34,516 nucleotides of DNA from Candidatus Omnitrophota bacterium. Lineage in GTDB: Bacteria; Omnitrophota; Gorgyraeia; Tantalellales; Tantalellaceae. Shown here in pieces: positions 15,466 to 34,516 of this stretch. A program made the translations under genes and the position numbers. Within the stretch, counting starts at the first letter, position 1. Each line of letters opens with the position of its first letter. The stretch spans positions 1 through 34,516 of the forward strand of contig WJMG01000020.1 in NCBI GenBank assembly GCA_014728075.1. The letters run 5' to 3'. The notes beneath the pieces were generated by a model. That model had not been told where the DNA came from, searched no databases, and saw only the letters and a list, made by a program, of their open reading frames with translations.

Positions 15466-18342
15466 ATGAAACATTACAGGATAGAAGTAAAGGATAAACC
15501 CGGGATATACGACGCGGTGGCCGAGGGACTGATGGTCGACATCAGGGACCTGGGCATACGCAGCGTGAAAGATGTGGATTACATACAGGCCTATACTTTC
15601 ACCGGGACGCTGACCCGCAAAGACCTTAAGAAGATCGCCGACGAAATACTTACCGACAAGGTGTCACAGCAGCGGAACATCGCCGGGGGGTTCCCCGGCC
15701 CGGAGAAAGGACGCTCCGTGGAGATCGCGTATAACGCTGGGGTTATGGACCCTGTCGAGGAAAGCGTGCTGAAAGCGGTTAAGGATATCGGCATAAAGGG
15801 CGTGGATTCGCTCAGGACCTCTAAAAAATATATCCTGAAAGGCGCCGTTACCCGTAACGACGCCCGTGTAATAGCCGAGCGATTATTATACAACAAGGTG
15901 ATACAGCATGTCGTGACCGGAAGCGAAGAAGAGAAAGAGATCAAACCTTATCGCTTTGAAAGGGTTGAAGTGGACATCCTGGGAATGGGGGACGCGGCGC
16001 TCAAAAAGCTCAGCATAAAAGGCCAGCTTTACCTCAGTCTTCCCGAAATGCGGGCCATACAGGATTATTTCCGCAAACTCGGCCGGAACCCGACCGACTG
16101 CGAGCTCGAAACGCTTGCCCAGACCTGGAGCGAACACTGCAAGCACAAGACCATGATGGGCGCCATCGACCAGGACGGCAAAAAGTTCAAGAACCTTCTT
16201 AAGGAAACCGTAATGAAGGTCACCCGGGAGCTGAAAAAGCCATGGTGCGTATCGGTCTTCAAGGATAACGCGGGGATAATAGAATTCGACCGCCGCAACA
16301 ATATATGTTTCAAGGTGGAGACACATAACCATCCGTCCGCGCTGGAACCCTACGGGGGTGCTGAAACCGGTGTAGGAGGCGTAATAAGGGACCCTATGGG
16401 GACCGGGCGGGGGGCAAGGCCCATAATCAATACCGACATATTCTGTTTCGGCCTTCCGGACATGGCCGCTTCGAAAGTCCCCAGAGGAGCCCTTCATCCC
16501 AAAAGGGTCCTTAAAGGCGTGGTAAGCGGCGTCAGGGACTACGGGAACAAGATGGGCATACCAACGGTCAACGGGGCGGTATGTTTCGATGAACGATATA
16601 CCGGCAATCCGCTTGTCTTTTGCGGAAATGTAGGCATCATGCCGAAAAAATACTCGACAAAAAAGGTCTCGCCCGGAGAACTCATCGTTGCCGTAGGAGG
16701 AAGGACCGGGAGGGACGGGATACACGGCGCGACCTTTTCCTCCGCCGAACTCACTCACGAATCGGAAACGGTATCGTCCACCGCCGTCCAGATAGGGAAC
16801 CCCATAACCGAAAAAAAGGTCCTCGACACCCTCGTTGTCGCGAGGGACCTCGACCTTTACACCGCGATCACCGATTGCGGCGCAGGGGGATTTTCCAGCG
16901 CCGTCGGCGAAATGGGCGAGGAGACCGGGGCCGAAGTGCACCTGGACAAGGCCCCTCTTAAATACAAGGGCCTCAAGCCCTGGGAAATATGGGTCTCGGA
17001 GGCTCAGGAACGGATGGTGCTTTCCGTTAAGCCTTCCAGGCTCGAACGCCTGATGAAGATATTCGAAAGCGAGGAGGTCGAAGCCACCGTCATAGGCAAA
17101 TTCACCGATACCGGGAAGCTCCGTCTGTTTTACGAGAAAAAACAGGTTGCCGAACTGGACATGGATTTTCTTCACGGAGGCCTTCCCAAAACATCCCGGA
17201 AAGCGGAATGGAAACCGGTCCGGCAGAACAAAAACTCGCTTCCCCGCAGGAAAAAGGATTACACGGGCGACCTGAAAAAGATCCTCTCCAGCTGGAATGT
17301 ATGCAGCAAAGAATGGATAATCCGGCAATACGACCACGAGGTCCAGGGGGGCAGCGTACTGAAACCCCTCGTGGGCCCCGATCACGACGGCCCGGCGGAC
17401 GCTTCGGTCACCCGTCCCGTCTTCAACAGCAACAGGGGAATAGCGCTTTCGAACGGTATAAACCCCCTTTACGGGGACATAGACCCTTACTGGATGGCCG
17501 CCAGCGCCATAGACGAAGCTTTGCGTCAGATAACCGCTGTAGGAGGAGACCTGTCCAGAACGGCGCTTCTGGATAACTTCTGCTGGGGAAACACCGAAAA
17601 ACCGAGGCAGCTGGGCGGCCTGGTGAGAGCCTCCCGGGCATGCTACGACATGGCACGGGTTTTCAAGACACCTTTCATCTCGGGGAAAGACAGCCTGAAC
17701 AACGAGTTCAATACCGGGAAAAAGACAGTTTCCATACCGCCCACGCTCCTTATCTCGGCCATATCGGTTGTCCGCGATGTCCGTAAGACCATATCTTCCG
17801 ATGCCAAAAAAGCGGGAAACCTTCTCTATGTCGTCGGAAAGACCTATCAGGAACTGGGCGGATCCCATTACCATCTGGTCAACGGCAAAAAGGGAGGGGT
17901 AGTCCCGCGCGTGGATCCCGTCAGGGCTTATGATACCATGTCTAAACTCTCCGGGGCGATAACCGACGGGCTGGTCGTTTCCGCTCACGACTGTTCCGAG
18001 GGGGGAATAGCGGTAGCCGTTGCCGAAATGCTGTTCGCCGGAGGCCTGGGAGCCGACATATCCGTTAAACGGGTCCCTAGGCCGGCTTCTTTGGACCGTG
18101 ACGATGTGATACTCTTTTCGGAATCCAACTCCAGGTTCATAGTGGAGATAGATCCCTCGCGGGAACAGGAGTTCCTGAAAAGGATGAAAAAGGTTCCGGC
18201 GGGTTTTCTGGGGACCATAAAGAAAAAGAAAGACCTCGTAGTGACCGGAGCCGGCGGCAAGACCGTAATAAGCTGCGGCACCGCGGCTCTTAAGAATAAC
18301 TGGAAAAAACCTTTCAAAAGGCTGATGCATGAAAAACGCTAA
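15466..18342 (+). CDS. purL: Phosphoribosylformylglycinamidine synthase, PurS-PurL fusion with two N-terminal PurS-like units
   Basis: Two PurS-like repeats at the N-terminus, then 'NPTDCELETLAQTWSEHCKHKTM', 'FKVETHNHPSALEPYGGAETGVGGVIRDPMGTGRGARPI', 'GKDSLNNE'. Confidence 0.96.
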   Translation: MKHYRIEVKDKPGIYDAVAEGLMVDIRDLGIRSVKDVDYIQAYTFTGTLTRKDLKKIADEILTDKVSQQRNIAGGFPGPEKGRSVEIAYNAGVMDPVEESVLKAVKDIGIKGVDSLRTSKKYILKGAVTRNDARVIAERLLYNKVIQHVVTGSEEEKEIKPYRFERVEVDILGMGDAALKKLSIKGQLYLSLPEMRAIQDYFRKLGRNPTDCELETLAQTWSEHCKHKTMMGAIDQDGKKFKNLLKETVMKVTRELKKPWCVSVFKDNAGIIEFDRRNNICFKVETHNHPSALEPYGGAETGVGGVIRDPMGTGRGARPIINTDIFCFGLPDMAASKVPRGALHPKRVLKGVVSGVRDYGNKMGIPTVNGAVCFDERYTGNPLVFCGNVGIMPKKYSTKKVSPGELIVAVGGRTGRDGIHGATFSSAELTHESETVSSTAVQIGNPITEKKVLDTLVVARDLDLYTAITDCGAGGFSSAVGEMGEETGAEVHLDKAPLKYKGLKPWEIWVSEAQERMVLSVKPSRLERLMKIFESEEVEATVIGKFTDTGKLRLFYEKKQVAELDMDFLHGGLPKTSRKAEWKPVRQNKNSLPRRKKDYTGDLKKILSSWNVCSKEWIIRQYDHEVQGGSVLKPLVGPDHDGPADASVTRPVFNSNRGIALSNGINPLYGDIDPYWMAASAIDEALRQITAVGGDLSRTALLDNFCWGNTEKPRQLGGLVRASRACYDMARVFKTPFISGKDSLNNEFNTGKKTVSIPPTLLISAISVVRDVRKTISSDAKKAGNLLYVVGKTYQELGGSHYHLVNGKKGGVVPRVDPVRAYDTMSKLSGAITDGLVVSAHDCSEGGIAVAVAEMLFAGGLGADISVKRVPRPASLDRDDVILFSESNSRFIVEIDPSREQEFLKRMKKVPAGFLGTIKKKKDLVVTGAGGKTVISCGTAALKNNWKKPFKRLMHEKR

Positions 18343-21529: not shown

Positions 21530-24500
21530 ATGTTTTCAAGATATTCATGCAATAAAAGATTTTTTATCATACTCATTACGGTGATCTGCTTCCTTTGTAC
21601 GAACATGGCCCCCGCAAAAGCCATGCCGAACCGTAACCTGGGCCCCCAGAGCATATTCAACCCTTTATTTTACAGCGACATCGGACATAAAGCGCTTGTA
21701 AAACACTTCTATCGGTTAAGCACTATTAAAGAACCTTCCGGCGATCACGATATTTTTGCCAGCATACGGGGGATCCCTCTCAGGTTATGCTTTTCGGAAA
21801 AACTTTCACATCTTCCCGGAAAACCGGTAAAATGCGTTCTGGGCAATGATGTTTATCTCGTGATATCCGTTCCTCCCAGAGCTAATTACCCTGGCCGGGA
21901 TATACTCGTTCTAACCCCTGCCGAATACTGCAACGAAGCCGCCGGGATGACAGGCGGGATCAAAACGCCCGGGGACGAACTCGAACGACTTGCCTCTACG
22001 GTCCCTGCGGCTGCCGGGACCCGTTCATTGAGCCCCGCGGACGCGGGCGCCGTCAGGCTTTTAAGTTTTCTGGGATCCGCCGGCTTCAGGGAATTGAGCC
22101 GTTCGATATACAGGCTCCTGGCGTCCGGCAGGGTCTTTCTCTCGGAAAGACCGGACGGGGCCCCTGCGGCAGAGAACACCATATGCCTGCGGGGGGAGGC
22201 CGGCCGGACCGGATACCTGCTTCTTGAAGAGGTCCTGAAAACCTCCGGGTTCGGGAACAGTGCCCTCGGAGAGGCGGAAAAGGCTTTTGAAAGGTTCATC
22301 TCCACCGGGGCGTATGACCTTGAAAGAGAATTCCCCGCGCTTTACGACCTTTTTTCTTCGGTCTTCGGTACCGGAGGCTTCACATTCCCGGACAACTCTC
22401 CGCGGGACGAACACGAAAAAGGCCCTTACGGGCCTTACTTTCAGCCGCCCATAGCTTCGGACACCGAAAGAGCCCCGGACCACAGGCTGCTTAACGCCGT
22501 TCTCAGGACCGCCATAAAACACGGCTTGACAGAGCGTGAAAGGTTCACTCCTTTCGTCCGTCCACCCGGCAGGAGGGATTTTATCGAAGTGTATTCGTAC
22601 GGTCCCGTTACCTCAAGCATTCCGAACGGGCCCAGATTATGGCTCATGAACCACATAATCTGGCAGGCCATCCAGGAAGGTCTTCTGGTGGAAAAGAAAA
22701 GCGACGGTCTTTTCTTTCCGGAAGTGAAAGGGATAACCGTGTGGATACCGTCGAAAGGCACCGCCTCCGCCAATTTCAGGGAACTTTATTTCTCTTTATC
22801 CGAAAAGGCCCGCGGAGAGGTGCGAGAGGCCTTCACCGGTACGGCCAGGAAAAAAAGAGCGGTGTTCCTCAATGAGACAGGCGCCCTTTTCAAGACCAGC
22901 CTCGACGAGCTTGAAAAAGACAGCTGTTATCAGAACATGGACACCTTCACGGCCTTCACTCTTGAGAGTTCCTCTCCGAGAAAGGCCATGGACAGGCAGA
23001 TAAACCGAATACTGCTTAAAAGGAGGATAGCCGCTCTCAGGCTCGGATATCCTTCCTGGGAAAGCATGCCCGCGAACGAGAAACGGGCCGCGATCAGGAA
23101 CGGAAACTCTTATATGTTCAGGCATTTCGGGGACCTGTACGGCGTTTTTACCGACGAGATGCGCAGGGAAGTGGAGGAACTTTTCGCCAAAGAATGCCTC
23201 GGCGACGGAGTGCCTTTGCGGCATGTCAGCAACCTGTTCGCCGACAGCGTGGGCAGGCTCCCCAACATAAGCGGGCACGCCGGCATAAGGAATTCCCGCA
23301 TACATGTAGTGAACGGCACGGGAGACCTAGACGGTCTTATCGCCCATGAAATGAGAGAAATGCTTTTCCATCAGCACTGGATAGCGGGAGTGTCCCCTTA
23401 CGCCAAGTGGGAATATATTCCCGACGAAGAAAAGGACGAAATAGTCGAAAAAGCCCGTTTTATCAAGGAACGGGCTCCCGGCAAAAGGATTCTCAGAAAG
23501 GCCGACCCCGCCTATGGAGAATTCGCCGTCGAAGCCCATACGAGAGCACAGCGCTTCCATCCGGTGCTTAACAGAAAAATACGCGGGGAGCGACTTTCGG
23601 AAGGAACCGAAAAGAAGGAAGACCCGTCGGACTTTTTCCATCCGCCCGCTGCGGCGGGAGGGAAAAAAGGTCCTTACGGGGACAGCCTCCCGGCGCGGGA
23701 AAGCCCGGATATGCCTTTCTCACGGGTGAATGTGGAAAGATACGACCTCCCACTGTCCATCGCGCCCGATGGAGCCAACATCATAGATATCATCGTTTCT
23801 TCTATCAGGTCCACGCTCGGGGAGGACACGCAGTTCGTTCTGATACCCCACGGAAGCCTGCTTTACCTCAGGGATGAAAAAGAAAATATATTATGGGACC
23901 TTGTCTCCGACATGGACTTCGATATCGTGTTTTTCGAAAAGGAAGAATTGCCCCGCGGGACTTATAGGGCCATATGGCTTAACATCAACAGGGAAATGCA
24001 AAATAAAGGCCTGCGCCAAATCCCTGAGGTCGACATAAGCCTCCATCGCATCGACACGGAGAGAGAGGACCCGTTCGACGAGTACGCGCATTATTATCTG
24101 AACCTTTTCACGGAGGTCTTCGCCACTGAAAAAGCCCTGAGGGAATATGACCGATATCTCCGCGCTCCGGACCTTTTGGAGAACATCGAGGAGCATTACC
24201 GGTCACTGTCCACGCTCAGCGACGGAACGATACGGTCACAGAAACTCAATACACCGTTTTTGCGGCGGATAAAAAAACTTAAACGGCTAATACACCTCGC
24301 GTGGATGCGGCGGGACCTGACTGCCCTGGACGGTTTCATCGAGGAACTTACGGACCTTGTCTATGAAAGAAAAAGCGGACCGGACGAGAAAGAATTCGAC
24401 GAAAGGCTTAAAGAGGCGGCGGGGCTCGTGACCCCGGAAAAGGGACGGAAAATGGTAGACCGCATAATCAAGATGAACAAAAAAACGGTCAAGACAGCCC

Positions 24501-25498
24501 TGACTTCCCTTGATAACCGGGACCGGAAGGCGCGGAAAGGGGGAGCTTCCGTCAAAAACACCTCCGCCCGCCGGGGAAGTGGACCCTCCGCGACGGCTTA
24601 CGGCAAAGAACGCGCTGCGCCGCACGATATCTGGGACCTTTTGAACTTTTCCCGCACCACCATGACCGTTAAGGAAATAGCTGCCGCTCTCACGGCCGGC
24701 ACTGCCGAGGTGAAAGCGCATCTGAATATCCTGAAGTCCCTTGGACTCGTCCTTTCCGGCGGCAAAAACCCCGGCGGGAACGGCGCGCCCGCTTACTCGC
24801 CGGTGATGATCGAACGCGAAGACGCGGCTGAAATAAGCCGTTCACTGGCCTCCATCGGCGCCGATGAAGGCTCGAAAATCCCATCGTCCTCCATGTCCCG
24901 GATCCTCCGGGCTACCGAGAAAAAATGGCCTCCGATCCTGCTTTCGTGGCTCTTTTCAGCGGCGCGAACGGCCCCGGCCGTGAACGGAAAGGTTTTAATA
25001 GCGGTGGAAACCTCATGGATACCGTCCTCCCAGAAGCCTTATGCCCAGAAGCTTCTGGTCGAGCTTGAACGGAACCTTCCGGAAAACTGCGCGATAATAC
25101 GCGGAAGCGGCCGATCCTTCTACGGTTCGCTTTCCGATAAGATCTCCGGAGGATCTATATCCCCGGAGAATGTCGTCATACTCGGCAATGTACTCCATAA
25201 AGATAACGGCTTTTCCGAGAATATTTCAGGCCGGGGCCCTGAGGTCCCTTTTACGGCCTGGATAGACGGATCACGACTCGACGACAACTGCTATGTCCGC
25301 CTTTTCGAGATGATGTTGATAGCGGGCAGATACGCTTTTACCGGAAAATGGGACCGGCGCCGGCACCCTTTTATCGGCGTTGAAATGATAGGGCGAAGAG
25401 CGATAGTGCTCACCCCTCTTCCCGACGCAGCCCCCATCGACCCGCAGCACCTCAAGGAGATCTACAAGGCTCTTCTTAAAGCGCTCCGCTCGGCCTGA
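21530..25498 (+). CDS. Giant secreted multidomain protein (1322 aa) with nucleotidyltransferase-like and winged-HTH-like segments
   Basis: Signal peptide 'FFIILITVICFLCTNMAPAKA'; 'FVLIPHGSLLYLRDEKENILWDLVSDMDFDIVFF...PEVDISLHRI' resembles the Pol-beta NTase signature; 'HDIWDLLNFSRTTMTVKEIAAALTAGTAEVKAHLNILKSLGLV' resembles ArsR/TrmB-type HTH. Confidence 0.8.
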   Translation: MFSRYSCNKRFFIILITVICFLCTNMAPAKAMPNRNLGPQSIFNPLFYSDIGHKALVKHFYRLSTIKEPSGDHDIFASIRGIPLRLCFSEKLSHLPGKPVKCVLGNDVYLVISVPPRANYPGRDILVLTPAEYCNEAAGMTGGIKTPGDELERLASTVPAAAGTRSLSPADAGAVRLLSFLGSAGFRELSRSIYRLLASGRVFLSERPDGAPAAENTICLRGEAGRTGYLLLEEVLKTSGFGNSALGEAEKAFERFISTGAYDLEREFPALYDLFSSVFGTGGFTFPDNSPRDEHEKGPYGPYFQPPIASDTERAPDHRLLNAVLRTAIKHGLTERERFTPFVRPPGRRDFIEVYSYGPVTSSIPNGPRLWLMNHIIWQAIQEGLLVEKKSDGLFFPEVKGITVWIPSKGTASANFRELYFSLSEKARGEVREAFTGTARKKRAVFLNETGALFKTSLDELEKDSCYQNMDTFTAFTLESSSPRKAMDRQINRILLKRRIAALRLGYPSWESMPANEKRAAIRNGNSYMFRHFGDLYGVFTDEMRREVEELFAKECLGDGVPLRHVSNLFADSVGRLPNISGHAGIRNSRIHVVNGTGDLDGLIAHEMREMLFHQHWIAGVSPYAKWEYIPDEEKDEIVEKARFIKERAPGKRILRKADPAYGEFAVEAHTRAQRFHPVLNRKIRGERLSEGTEKKEDPSDFFHPPAAAGGKKGPYGDSLPARESPDMPFSRVNVERYDLPLSIAPDGANIIDIIVSSIRSTLGEDTQFVLIPHGSLLYLRDEKENILWDLVSDMDFDIVFFEKEELPRGTYRAIWLNINREMQNKGLRQIPEVDISLHRIDTEREDPFDEYAHYYLNLFTEVFATEKALREYDRYLRAPDLLENIEEHYRSLSTLSDGTIRSQKLNTPFLRRIKKLKRLIHLAWMRRDLTALDGFIEELTDLVYERKSGPDEKEFDERLKEAAGLVTPEKGRKMVDRIIKMNKKTVKTALTSLDNRDRKARKGGASVKNTSARRGSGPSATAYGKERAAPHDIWDLLNFSRTTMTVKEIAAALTAGTAEVKAHLNILKSLGLVLSGGKNPGGNGAPAYSPVMIEREDAAEISRSLASIGADEGSKIPSSSMSRILRATEKKWPPILLSWLFSAARTAPAVNGKVLIAVETSWIPSSQKPYAQKLLVELERNLPENCAIIRGSGRSFYGSLSDKISGGSISPENVVILGNVLHKDNGFSENISGRGPEVPFTAWIDGSRLDDNCYVRLFEMMLIAGRYAFTGKWDRRRHPFIGVEMIGRRAIVLTPLPDAAPIDPQHLKEIYKALLKALRSA

Positions 25499-29377: not shown

Positions 29378-30235
29378 ATGATATGTAACCCCGCTACATC
29401 AGAGACAGCTAATAGTATTATGGAAATCGATAATGTCACTTTTACGGTCCTGGATGTGGAGACTACGGGCCTGTACCCGCATTGGGGGGACAGGATCTGC
29501 GAAATAGGGGCCCTTAAAGTCTCCCCGAAAGGCGAAAGAAAAACTTTCGAAATGCTCGTAGACCCGGAAAAGCCCGTTTCACCGGGAGCGTACGCCGTTA
29601 ACAGGATATCCAGCGATATGCTCAACGGAAAACCCCGCATCGCCGAGATAATCGACGAATTCATGGATTTCATACGGGATACCGTTATAGTCGCCTATAA
29701 CGCCCGGTTTGACATGGGGTTCATCGATTCCGCGCTGGGAGAGAACAGGAACCAGCTTACCGGCTACTACATTGTCGACGCGCTTCAGCTTGCGCGGAAC
29801 CTTTTTCCCTCTATAGGTAAATACAATCTGTCCTCGGTAGCCCGCTACCTGGACATACGGATCCGCGACGAGCACAGGGCGATGGCGGATGTGGAGACCA
29901 CCTGGGAAGTCTTCCGTAAGGAACTCGAGCTCCTGAAAGAAAAAGGCATAAAGAAGGTCAGGGATATTTCCAGTGTCTATATCGCCAACGCTACAGGCAA
30001 AGAAAGCTCCGACAGCGATATGGAGTTGCTTCTGCAGAACGCCATAGTGGACAGTACGCCTCTGAAAATACGCTACAGGTCCATATGGGACAATAAAGTG
30101 AGCGTCCGCACCATAACGCCTAAAGCCTTGAAGGAATCTTACCTCGTAGCGTACTGCCATCTACGGCAGGCCAGAAGGAATTTCCGTTTGGACTGTATCC
30201 TCCATGTGGAGGAAGACCCGTTAACTATAAGATAG
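29378..30235 (+). CDS. DEDDh (DnaQ/PolC-type) 3'-5' exonuclease with C-terminal WYL-like domain
   Basis: 'VLDVETTGLYPHWGDRICEIGAL', 'YNARFDMGF', 'HRAMADVETTW' (Exo I-III). C-terminal 'LKIRYRSIWDNKVSVRTITPKALKESYLVAYCHLRQARRNFRLDCI' resembles WYL. Start may instead be 29420. Confidence 0.85.
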   Translation: MICNPATSETANSIMEIDNVTFTVLDVETTGLYPHWGDRICEIGALKVSPKGERKTFEMLVDPEKPVSPGAYAVNRISSDMLNGKPRIAEIIDEFMDFIRDTVIVAYNARFDMGFIDSALGENRNQLTGYYIVDALQLARNLFPSIGKYNLSSVARYLDIRIRDEHRAMADVETTWEVFRKELELLKEKGIKKVRDISSVYIANATGKESSDSDMELLLQNAIVDSTPLKIRYRSIWDNKVSVRTITPKALKESYLVAYCHLRQARRNFRLDCILHVEEDPLTIR

Positions 30236-31017: not shown

Positions 31018-31046
31018 TTGATTTTATCTGTTGTTTTATATATAAT
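31018..31046 (+). promoter_or_regulatory. Sigma70-type promoter, TTGATT-17-TATAAT
   Basis: TTGATT 31018-31023, TATAAT 31041-31046, upstream of ATG 31072. Confidence 0.7.
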
Positions 31047-31071: not shown

Positions 31072-34000
31072 ATGAAGATCATTTCTATCCTTATAATTTT
31101 AAGTTTGATATTCCAGCCTCTGCCTTCTTTAGCGGAACAGAAGATCTCGACCCTTTCGCCATGGACAGGATTCCAAGATAGCGGCGGGCCATCTAATATC
31201 GCTATATCGCTTATCTCCCGATACATCGAAGAGAACGGTATATATGCGCGGACACTTGATGATATCCAGCGCCTTCTGTTGAATAGTAATGCGCCCGCGA
31301 AGGTCACTCTCACCCGGAGGCCCGGTGAAATAATCGTAGAGGCCGGGGAGAGCAAAGAGGCAATAAGGTTCTTTGACCCCCGATTAGCCCCATTCGTTAC
31401 TCCTTTCGGGGATATCGAGCGTCTCTCGACGCGCGTGGTGAACGATTCGCTTTACATGCAGCATATCCGCAGCGAACTGGTACTAAACTCTACGAATGCG
31501 ATGTTCACCGAACAGGATCACGCGTTCTGTGATCACCTTATAGAATTCGCCAGAAAAAAGATCGAGCAGACGGACGAGCTGGACCCGGGGATGCCCGTAG
31601 CCGCCATGATAGTTGACGGGAACGGTAAGATAATAACCGAATCGATACGCAAGGACCACTACTCCTCCACAAAATACGGCGTAAAAGCCCTCCACGCCGA
31701 GGTAGCGGCAGTATATGAAGCACAGGAAGCGGGATTTACTGACTGGTCCAACGCCACAATATATGTCACCATGGAATCGGGCTTCAACAGCCTTAAAGAG
31801 CTTATAACCCTTTACGGCTTCGGCAGGGTCGTTTACATCCTTCCAAAAGATCTCCGCATAGACCCGGCCGATACCGCTGACACTCCGAAAACCCTTATAA
31901 AATGCCCCGACAAAAGACTTCGAGAAAAAATGAGAGCGCTCATAAAGCAACCCGATGTTTCGGACATACCCGATATAAACGAACTTATTTACGCGGACCT
32001 TAACGGATCCGCCGACAAAAGCACCCGATCTACGGACCTTATACAACCCGAAATGTTCAAGAAATTATTTCTTCCCCATAAGATCCTTGTCTGGGAATTC
32101 AATACCCGTTACCGGAGGATGTTCTTTTCTAAAAAGAAACCCGATGAACACCCCCTTATCGTGGATAAGGAAGAAGATGGAGATAGCTCCGGGGAAAAAG
32201 AGGTTCCCCGGGTGATCCCCATACATCCCAGCATGATAAAAAGGTTCTGGAACCCGATATTCGCTGAAGAGATATCCATATCCAGATATCTGGGCCGGAT
32301 GCTTATGTCCGAATTCAGAGACTTCGCGCGGGAACAGCACATGCATGAGACCGAAAAACAGTCCCGCGAAAAGAGCCTGGCGGATTTCGAAGCGATATCA
32401 CCGCTGCTCGAAAAAGTCATTGACCTGCGTGAACTTAAGATACTTTACCACCTTCTTAAGCAGAGAAGAACAGAAGCTGCTCGTCAGAAGAACAATGCCG
32501 ATGCCGTATTCACGGATTTCGATCATCTTATGGAAAAGATAAACCTCCCCGGCAGGGACCAGGAACTCATACGCTCTCTGAAGAACGACCACAACAGGGG
32601 TCTGCGTGAGATAAAGACCCTTTATCAGGGTATAGTATCCGACAAAGGCCTGGAAGCATCTTTTAAACGCCTTTATGACAAGTTCGCAAAACAAGAACAT
32701 ATACTGCTGGTAATAGACGATTATGAAAGCTTTTCCGAATTCCGATCGGATATTCTTTCGAAACAGATCCTTCCGGACGGCGCGGTGATCCAATACTACC
32801 ACGACCTTTTCCCTTCGGCGGTCACCGAAAAACCCATGGTGGACATGCATATACACTCGACTTACTCAGATGGGGACACCTCGCCGGATATGCTTCTCAA
32901 GAAAACCTCGGAGATGGGGCTTTACGCGATCTCTATAACGGATCACGATACGCTCGACGCCTATCTTGATCCCGAAAACACCGACATCTTCAAACTGGCC
33001 GAAGAAGCCGGGGTTAAAGTGACAGCCGGAAGCGAAATAAGCAGTTTGTGTTATAACGACTGTTTTGATGACGGGTATTACTTTACCGACATAATCGCAC
33101 TTTTCCCCAGGGGAAAAGGAGAGACCGACTCAAGCTACCGTAAAAGGCTCAAGAAAACGAACAGATACATAGAGGCTTTCCGCAGCCAGTTCCGTAAATG
33201 TATCATGTCATCGTTTTTCCGCCTTAAGACGGAATACAGGAAATTCTACGACCTTTCGGTAAAGGAAATGCTCGAGGAAGCGATCGAACGGGACACATAC
33301 AACGGTTTCCATACGGAACAACTCAGCAGCTATATAGACATGGACAGGATAGAGGAAGAGGCTTACTGGATGGAAATGCTGTCCGACAAGGAATTTCGCG
33401 GAAAAATGCCCAAATGCATGGCAGATTTCATGACTCCCCTTACGCACATTGTATCCAAAGTCGGGCCTGAGAATATAACCGGGGACATCAACACTGAGGC
33501 GGTTGAAAACGCGGTCAACGAAACCCGTGAGGCCTTAAAGGAGGAAGGCCCCGAAAAACAGGAAGAAGCGGCCAGGAAGACCCTCCTGGAGACCACCGCC
33601 AAGGAACTTAACTATTATATATTGTCCAAAAAGAACCATTATTTCGGCCTGCCTGACACTACAATGACCGCCGAATCACTTGTTTCGGACGAGACTTCGC
33701 CCGGGAAGACATGGGGGCTGCTTTCAACGGAGGACATACTTTCTCTGATAAAGAAAGAAAAGGGTTACGCCATACTGGCCCACCCGGAGGGGCAATGGCG
33801 ACAGATGGGTTCACGGAAATTTGAATTGTGGGTAAAAGAAATGAAAAAGGCCGGACTTTACGGCATAGAAGCTTTTTCCCGGGGACACACGGGGACCCTT
33901 TCTCTCTATTTCAACGGCCTCGCCAAACAGAACGGCCTTATTACCACAAACGGCAGTGACTTTCACGGGGAAAAAACCCCGCATGCCCGGAGGGAGCTCG

Positions 34001-34516
34001 CGGTAGGGTACAAAGACTCCGTGGGCAACCAGACCACCGTTGACAAAATACGAAGCCTGATATACCTTGACGAGCATAACGGCGATGCCGGAGACCTCCC
34101 CCAGATCATACCTTTTTCCACCAATAAATTCTCCGACATAATATCGACCTGGTCAGACCTTCCCAATACCGAAAGAGATATACACCTTGAATCCTCAGGA
34201 CAGGACAGGACCTTAAACCTGGCGGAAGCGATAAACTCAACACCTTATCCCGAACATAAAGTTCCACATTTCAACCCGAAGAATTACAGGAAAGTATATG
34301 ACCTTCAAAGAAGAATAGCCGCGGCGGACTATCCCTGGAGCGGTTCGAGCGAGGCGATGGAGGATATCCTGCGGGAAGCGTTTCCCAACGAGCATCAAAC
34401 ACACTTGATGAACTATGAACAGTCAAGATCTAACGACAGAAAAGGGGCAAAGCTCAATCTGATAAGAATGTTATGGACAAAACACAACGCGATAATCGGC
34501 ACGGTTTCCATAGAGG
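31072..34516 (+). CDS. Giant secreted protein, 3' truncated by window edge: deaminase-like domain + helical linker + PHP domain (absent from ORF track)
   Basis: Open from ATG 31072 to window end (at least 1148 codons). Signal peptide MKIISILIILSLIFQPLPSLAEQ; deaminase-like 'MPVAAMIVDGNGKIITE...ALHAEVAAVYEAQ...ATIYVTMES...FGRVVY'; PHP 'VDMHIHSTYSDGDTSPDMLLKKTSEMGLYAISITDHDT', 'AILAHPEG', 'GLITTNGSDFHG'. Confidence 0.88.
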   Translation, partial: MKIISILIILSLIFQPLPSLAEQKISTLSPWTGFQDSGGPSNIAISLISRYIEENGIYARTLDDIQRLLLNSNAPAKVTLTRRPGEIIVEAGESKEAIRFFDPRLAPFVTPFGDIERLSTRVVNDSLYMQHIRSELVLNSTNAMFTEQDHAFCDHLIEFARKKIEQTDELDPGMPVAAMIVDGNGKIITESIRKDHYSSTKYGVKALHAEVAAVYEAQEAGFTDWSNATIYVTMESGFNSLKELITLYGFGRVVYILPKDLRIDPADTADTPKTLIKCPDKRLREKMRALIKQPDVSDIPDINELIYADLNGSADKSTRSTDLIQPEMFKKLFLPHKILVWEFNTRYRRMFFSKKKPDEHPLIVDKEEDGDSSGEKEVPRVIPIHPSMIKRFWNPIFAEEISISRYLGRMLMSEFRDFAREQHMHETEKQSREKSLADFEAISPLLEKVIDLRELKILYHLLKQRRTEAARQKNNADAVFTDFDHLMEKINLPGRDQELIRSLKNDHNRGLREIKTLYQGIVSDKGLEASFKRLYDKFAKQEHILLVIDDYESFSEFRSDILSKQILPDGAVIQYYHDLFPSAVTEKPMVDMHIHSTYSDGDTSPDMLLKKTSEMGLYAISITDHDTLDAYLDPENTDIFKLAEEAGVKVTAGSEISSLCYNDCFDDGYYFTDIIALFPRGKGETDSSYRKRLKKTNRYIEAFRSQFRKCIMSSFFRLKTEYRKFYDLSVKEMLEEAIERDTYNGFHTEQLSSYIDMDRIEEEAYWMEMLSDKEFRGKMPKCMADFMTPLTHIVSKVGPENITGDINTEAVENAVNETREALKEEGPEKQEEAARKTLLETTAKELNYYILSKKNHYFGLPDTTMTAESLVSDETSPGKTWGLLSTEDILSLIKKEKGYAILAHPEGQWRQMGSRKFELWVKEMKKAGLYGIEAFSRGHTGTLSLYFNGLAKQNGLITTNGSDFHGEKTPHARRELAVGYKDSVGNQTTVDKIRSLIYLDEHNGDAGDLPQIIPFSTNKFSDIISTWSDLPNTERDIHLESSGQDRTLNLAEAINSTPYPEHKVPHFNPKNYRKVYDLQRRIAAADYPWSGSSEAMEDILREAFPNEHQTHLMNYEQSRSNDRKGAKLNLIRMLWTKHNAIIGTVSIE

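Follow-up and report, generated by a model that had tools for sequence, protein, structure and literature searches.

At the right end of the window, by which is meant the whole 34,516-nucleotide stretch of DNA analysed here, a long open reading frame (ORF) combines a signal-peptide-like start with a deaminase-like fold and a PHP phosphoesterase domain. The locus raises the question of what kind of protein this is, where it would act, and whether the fusion of two such folds behind an export signal is as exceptional as the preliminary description had held.

Layout of the Long ORF

The ORF was read from the ATG at 31072, its first possible start codon, to the last base without a stop, over 1148 codons, as had been described before. 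The extension of the contig suggested earlier for recovery of the 3' end was not possible, since contig WJMG01000020.1 itself stops at 34516, inside the gene, and the 3' end is missing. The following features were recognized:

31018 to 31046, + strand: promoter-like site TTGATT-17-TATAAT upstream of the gene, sigma-70-like (consensus scan, 10 of 12 matches)
31072 to 34515, + strand: whole ORF, at least 1148 codons in a single frame, truncated by the contig end
31072 to 31134, + strand: putative signal peptide MKIISILIILSLIFQPLPSLA, cleavage expected after Ala21, aligning with the leaders of other long ORFs
31132 to 31521, + strand: N-module common to long Omnitrophota ORFs (profile match, residues ~21–150)
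31153 to 31173, + strand: leader motif LSPWTGF, a form of LAxxSxF (leader alignment; enrichment in independent leaders)
31483 to 31950, + strand: deaminase-fold domain, about residues 150–262
31951 to 32829, + strand: charged linker, presumably helical, without family match
32833 to 34071, + strand: PHP phosphoesterase domain with an enlarged insertion, residues 588–1000
34072 to 34515, + strand: C-terminal part without family match, broken off by the contig end

The protein thus runs from the signal peptide (residues 1–21) through LSPWTGF, the N-module, the deaminase fold, the linker and the PHP domain to a tail. The promoter-like site is weak on its own, with one found where 0.7 were expected.

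GC content by codon position was lowest at position 2 in all seven successive 164-codon blocks of the ORF, which argues against an internal frameshift or a junction of two genes, and by this measure no internal frameshift was seen along 31072–34515. An artefact of assembly or frame joining separate genes, a danger named in the preliminary description, could draw on the contig end lying inside the gene, but is very improbable: the frame is uniform and the codon-position bias constant to the end, the relatives of the PHP domain (L036) and of the deaminase fold (L114) are likewise embedded in long ORFs of other genomes, and the leader and N-module are found again where other long ORFs begin.

Profile libraries gave no family match for residues 22–146, the linker or the last 140 residues, and the defence-system library (PADLOC) gave no match. 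The start of a GNAT domain in the last 100 residues, proposed from likeness by eye, was supported by neither Pfam nor PDB; a GNAT domain is present in the deaminase relative L114. A scan of the genome contigs with the whole protein found no relative. The search for co-occurrence of the two enzyme folds in related genomes, as earlier proposed, was equally negative: no relative of the same architecture was found, and the pairing of deaminase and PHP occurred in no other genome searched, so that the exact architecture rests on one gene.

Two other genes of the window have their own points of note. A PurL-like protein of 958 aa (15466–18342) has a PurS domain fused on its N-terminal side (PF02700 at residues 85–148, then FGAR-AT linker and AIRS domains), and the ORF at 29378–30235 starts as a DnaQ-like exonuclease and has a C-terminal part that is WYL-like by eye.

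A Deaminase Fold Without Zinc Cysteines

The CDA/TadA-like module of the preliminary description held as a fold, but probably not as a working enzyme. Pfam dCMP_cyt_deam_1 matched residues 159–235 above its curated cut-off (E = 7.2e-7). An AlphaFold model of residues 138–293, for which the alignment consisted of nine embedded and stand-alone Omnitrophota deaminases, had a pTM of 0.80, and the structural comparison that had been called for returned deaminases from the PDB: Foldseek matched the model to dCMP deaminase, TadA, and guanine and cytosine deaminases at E values of about 1e-6 to 1e-5, with 62 PDB matches at E up to 1e-3, the best among those listed being deaminases. The predicted deaminase fold is therefore well supported.

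In the deaminase superfamily, both cysteines of the PCxxC motif bind the catalytic zinc. Here the HAE motif is present at residues 208–210, and the PCxxC (NCxxC, SCxxC) of relatives is replaced by SGFNS, within ESGFNS at residues 235–240, so that both zinc cysteines are gone. The alignment is free of gaps at this site, and the loss therefore occurred by substitution. Both cysteines are kept in the deaminases of L039, L040, L077, and L114, and the closest relative, a leader-bearing ORF of 1480 aa from another genus with 40% identity, has HAE and SCHAC. With both zinc cysteines lost, the domain is probably catalytically dead, and it would most likely serve as a binding or structural module. It thus has the fold and the HAE of the cytidine deaminase superfamily (dCMP deaminase, TadA, guanine/cytosine deaminase), but differs in lacking PCxxC, so that no zinc site is expected, and in being fused between the N-module and a PHP domain.

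The PHP Domain

Residues 591–694 matched the Pfam PHP family above its curated cut-off (E = 1.5e-9), and the NCBIfam model of 3',5'-nucleoside bisphosphate phosphatase, NF041577, matched with E = 3.4e-20 and added the second half of the domain (residues 886–969). Both equivalog cut-offs were missed, with 72 bits against 400 for NF041577 and 54 bits against 375 for RNase RNM. The motifs named in the preliminary description were all present, with DMHIHSTYSDG at 32842, ITDHDT at 32935, AHPEG at 33778, and GSDFHG at 33952, and in the alignment of Omnitrophota PHP domains the metal ligands H593, H595, D600, H625, E655, H904, D963, and H965 stood in conserved columns. The claim that the motifs are intact has to be qualified at the ninth ligand, the His of the VHILG strand, which is D673 here and Glu in the PHP domains of the giant ORFs L036 and L042. 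An acidic residue may likewise serve as a metal ligand. The helical insertion said to split the domain is there, but it belongs to the usual layout of the RNase AM / bisphosphate-phosphatase type, in which an insertion between the PHP halves is normal, and is about twice as long here.

Solved relatives of the domain are 3e0f, 2yb1, and 7ug9. Its motifs, eight metal ligands and insertion between halves are those of RNase AM (YciV/Rnm) and nucleoside-3',5'-bisphosphate phosphatase; it differs from them in being embedded in a leader-bearing multidomain protein, in the Asp at the ninth ligand, in the length of the insert, and in scoring far below the equivalog cut-offs. Judged from the retained ligands, the domain is probably a working phosphoesterase.

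The closest relative is the PHP domain of the long ORF L036 (1672 aa), which is 33% identical over the two halves together with the insert, and the two were joined in the tree with full support. The PHP domains of giant ORFs fell outside the stand-alone Omnitrophota PHP proteins (93/84) and had long branches; stand-alone PHP proteins of 298 and 299 aa are encoded in the organism's own genome too. In L036 (4083–9098 of G014:C8), the stretch LSSKSLTGQATNDERRTTN is repeated within the one long ORF, and probably represents the translation of an interspersed DNA repeat.

Lost zinc cysteines, a changed ninth PHP ligand, the long branches of the giant-ORF PHP domains and the lack of a same-architecture relative among the genomes searched are also what would be expected of a decaying fusion, in which duplicated domains accreted under weak selection, the deaminase is already dead and the PHP domain is on the way. 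This alternative is quite unlikely, however, in view of the absence of stops and frameshifts, a codon-position bias that does not fade toward the end, eight intact PHP ligands, a deaminase fold that is still predicted, and an N-module conserved across genera.

A Leader Common to Long Omnitrophota ORFs

The hydropathy scan agreed with the signal-peptide-like start described earlier, in that the N-terminal hydrophobic segment was the only one above threshold in the protein. When the first ~50 residues of long ORFs were aligned, the leaders had a basic start, a hydrophobic core, often an end of the SWA, SFA or SLA type, and then L[AS]xxSx[FN]. Of 25 leaders, 24 had a positive charge before the core (+1 to +10), and 23 a zero or negative charge after it.

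A profile of the leader (signal peptide plus LAxxSxF) was searched against the organism's own genome and 59 Omnitrophota relatives; some of the best matches are training rows. It matched at 14 loci in the own genome, 12 of which start ORFs of 999 to 10,567 aa, including two of 10,544 and 10,567 aa, while the other two run off contig ends. Matches were found in 52 of the 59 relatives, and of the best 150 of these, 115 lie at the beginning of an ORF of 700 aa or more (median 1411). The claim that an exported fusion of deaminase and PHP is exceptional thus did not hold in this form: comparable leaders stand in front of many other cargoes in long ORFs.

Because the full profile itself contains LAxxSxF, it would make a test of the motif circular, and the search was repeated with the signal-peptide part only. 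Among 26 leaders that were not training rows, 5 then showed the strict motif within 45 residues; shuffled sequences gave an expectation of 0.39 and reached at most 4 in 2000 runs, and the motif occurred in only 1.7% of downstream windows. The LAxxSxF motif is real, but it marks only a subset of leaders. Some of the longest ORFs have another downstream motif in its place, IPYDLA..QE-like. Such leaders form a second subclass, in which a signal peptide ending in WA is followed by an IPY[DN]LA..QE-like stretch in ORFs of up to about 12,900 aa (L157, L160, L163, L172, L173, and others).

The window itself holds another long ORF of the leader-bearing kind:

21530 to 25498, + strand: long ORF of 1322 aa, the second with a leader; NLGPQSIFNP follows its signal peptide

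It matched the leader profile with E = 1.1e-14, as a training row, and contained no Pfam family above cut-off. In another genome (L114, 2021–9701 of G136:C34), adjacent long ORFs have almost identical signal peptides (KRHSTWMRTTALVLVCLFT[VI]NT) but differ in their cargo, a pattern resembling that left by copying of the 5' end.

The N-Module

Residues 22–146, which had passed unnoticed in the preliminary description, are a shared module. It directly follows the signal peptide at the start of the long ORF here and recurs in other genera. Its profile matched the gene itself with E = 1.6e-51 (a training row). Within the class, 15 of 248 sampled genomes contained it, and within the phylum sample 16 of 392, mostly immediately behind a hydrophobic leader with which an ORF of about 760 to 3000 aa begins; a 5311-aa ORF of genome G433 counts among the profile matches. 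A scan of the genome contigs with the module gave four loci, all from Candidatus Omnitrophota. Membership of the present gene in the set defined by leader and N-module is near certain.

The module was modelled as two helices followed by five strands, with pLDDT mostly 74–95. It had no match in Pfam or PDB; a profile search against PDB sequences gave only E values above 0.3, and a model of N-module plus deaminase, which was poor outside the N-module, matched no PDB fold. In L078 (G097:C7), the N-module is split into residues 42–95 and 454–519, with an HD domain between the halves.

Cargo of the Sister ORFs

What follows the N-module varies from ORF to ORF. The cargo comprises radical SAM domains with B12-binding plus methyltransferase or HAD domains; adenylate kinase; LpxC; PPDK; HD plus GT2; NTP transferase plus methyltransferase; HAD domains plus inositol monophosphatase (IMPase); a methyltransferase with an intact deaminase; and, as weak matches, GH130 and phosphoribosyltransferase. 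Leader-bearing ORFs of the own genome add histidine kinases with PAS and receiver domains, glutamate dehydrogenase, a CofD-like protein, an M20 peptidase and, in one ORF, RHS repeats. By simple hydropathy, the leader is the sole hydrophobic segment in most proteins with the N-module. At L138 (673–12341 of contig C84, own genome), two leader-bearing PAS/histidine-kinase/receiver ORFs of 2088 and at least 1721 aa are adjacent, and a simple hydropathy scan found no internal hydrophobic segment in either.

A constant N-terminal part with exchangeable enzymes is also the plan of polymorphic toxins, in which a constant trafficking part precedes exchangeable C-terminal enzymes (PMC3482391). The protein could accordingly be an effector against other cells, with nucleic-acid-directed enzymes as warheads. 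Some deaminases of the sister ORFs are related to MafB19-deam by profile, the RHS repeats of one own-genome ORF would suit such a role, and deaminases do occur among polymorphic toxins. A host-dependent lifestyle, as proposed for the phylum (PMC10066038), would suit it too. This explanation is nevertheless improbable. Most of the cargo is metabolic (LpxC, PPDK, glutamate dehydrogenase) rather than toxic, and the deaminase fold lies near the N-terminus rather than at the C-terminal tip, its zinc ligands gone. Polymorphic toxins pair a toxin tip with an immunity gene; here the gene is cut before its C-terminus, the 3' flank with a possible immunity gene lies beyond the contig end, and PADLOC gave no hit.

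Likely Export and Possible Place of Action

Export of the protein is likely, judging from the leader. By the positive-inside rule, the charge distribution should place the enzymes behind such leaders, including those that use ATP, SAM or NAD, outside the cytoplasm. The doubt raised earlier, whether the segment might be an anchor rather than a signal peptide, does not decide the location, since an uncleaved anchor of such a charge pattern also puts the body outside.

The sister cargo pulls in another direction. Adenylate kinase, PPDK, histidine kinases, radical SAM enzymes and glutamate dehydrogenase need ATP, SAM or NAD, which are unexpected in the periplasm, and this need speaks against export, unless the proteins are delivered into another cell. 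If there were no export, the leader would be a membrane anchor or an unused signal, with the enzymes at the membrane on its cytoplasmic side; this would suit the cofactor needs of the sister cargo and the PAS/histidine-kinase/receiver chains, in which hydropathy showed no inner membrane segment. It is rather unlikely all the same, as the leader charges predict the body outside, cleaved or not, and cleavage sites of the SWA, SFA or SLA type stand at the end of many leaders.

The explanation we favour, and hold to be moderately probable, is that the gene belongs to a lineage-specific family of giant leader-bearing enzyme proteins of the Omnitrophota, with the PHP domain as its working part. In this family, a Sec-type signal peptide and then the LAxxSxF motif, here also the N-module, would stand ahead of gene-specific enzyme domains. 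The PHP domain would most likely be a metal-dependent phosphoesterase of the RNase AM / nucleoside-3',5'-bisphosphate-phosphatase type, and may dephosphorylate nucleotides or the ends of RNA outside the cytoplasm, be it in the periplasm, at the cell surface or in a partner cell. The changed ninth PHP ligand and the one-gene architecture of deaminase and PHP count against this explanation.

Relation to Known Giant ORFs and Export Signals

Giant ORFs of the Omnitrophota are already known. They were defined by a length above 20 kb, have few annotated domains and poorly understood roles, and are described mostly through adhesion domains and membrane helices; the authors connect them with a lifestyle that depends on a host (Seymour et al., 2023; PMC10066038). 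Their role is likewise left open in PMC11573180. The present gene shares with them the phylum and the character of a long, poorly annotated ORF. It differs from the giant ORFs as described there in having no inner membrane segment, and in its leader motif, N-module and enzymes; its length, cut short by the contig end, is at least 3.4 kb. A shared leader is not mentioned in the accessible part of PMC10066038, and no description of a shared leader or N-module of Omnitrophota ORFs was found in the open-access papers searched, mainly titles and abstracts. The leader motif, the N-module and the enzyme cargo are what is added here.

In Plasmodium, the PEXEL, a short motif a few residues after the signal peptide, marks many unrelated cargo proteins. 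A short motif behind the signal peptide and a large set of unrelated cargo are found here too. The likeness is one of analogy only: there is no homology, the motif is another one, and processing and host delivery are not part of it. A bolder reading, which we regard as doubtful, takes the common N-terminal part, made up of signal peptide, LAxxSxF motif and in some proteins the N-module, as an address by which exchangeable enzymes of cytoplasmic type, those dependent on ATP, SAM or NAD included, are exported, possibly into a host or prey. It would then be a bacterial equivalent of the export codes that target proteins to a host, with the deaminase/PHP protein as the member that processes nucleotides or RNA.

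The shared leader and N-module offer a handle by which giant genes of this kind can be listed from sequence and the question of their destination becomes testable. If the proteins leave the cell, those among them that depend on ATP or SAM would have to work inside a different cell or be supplied in some unusual way, and our view of the way of life of these tiny, probably host-dependent bacteria would have to change.
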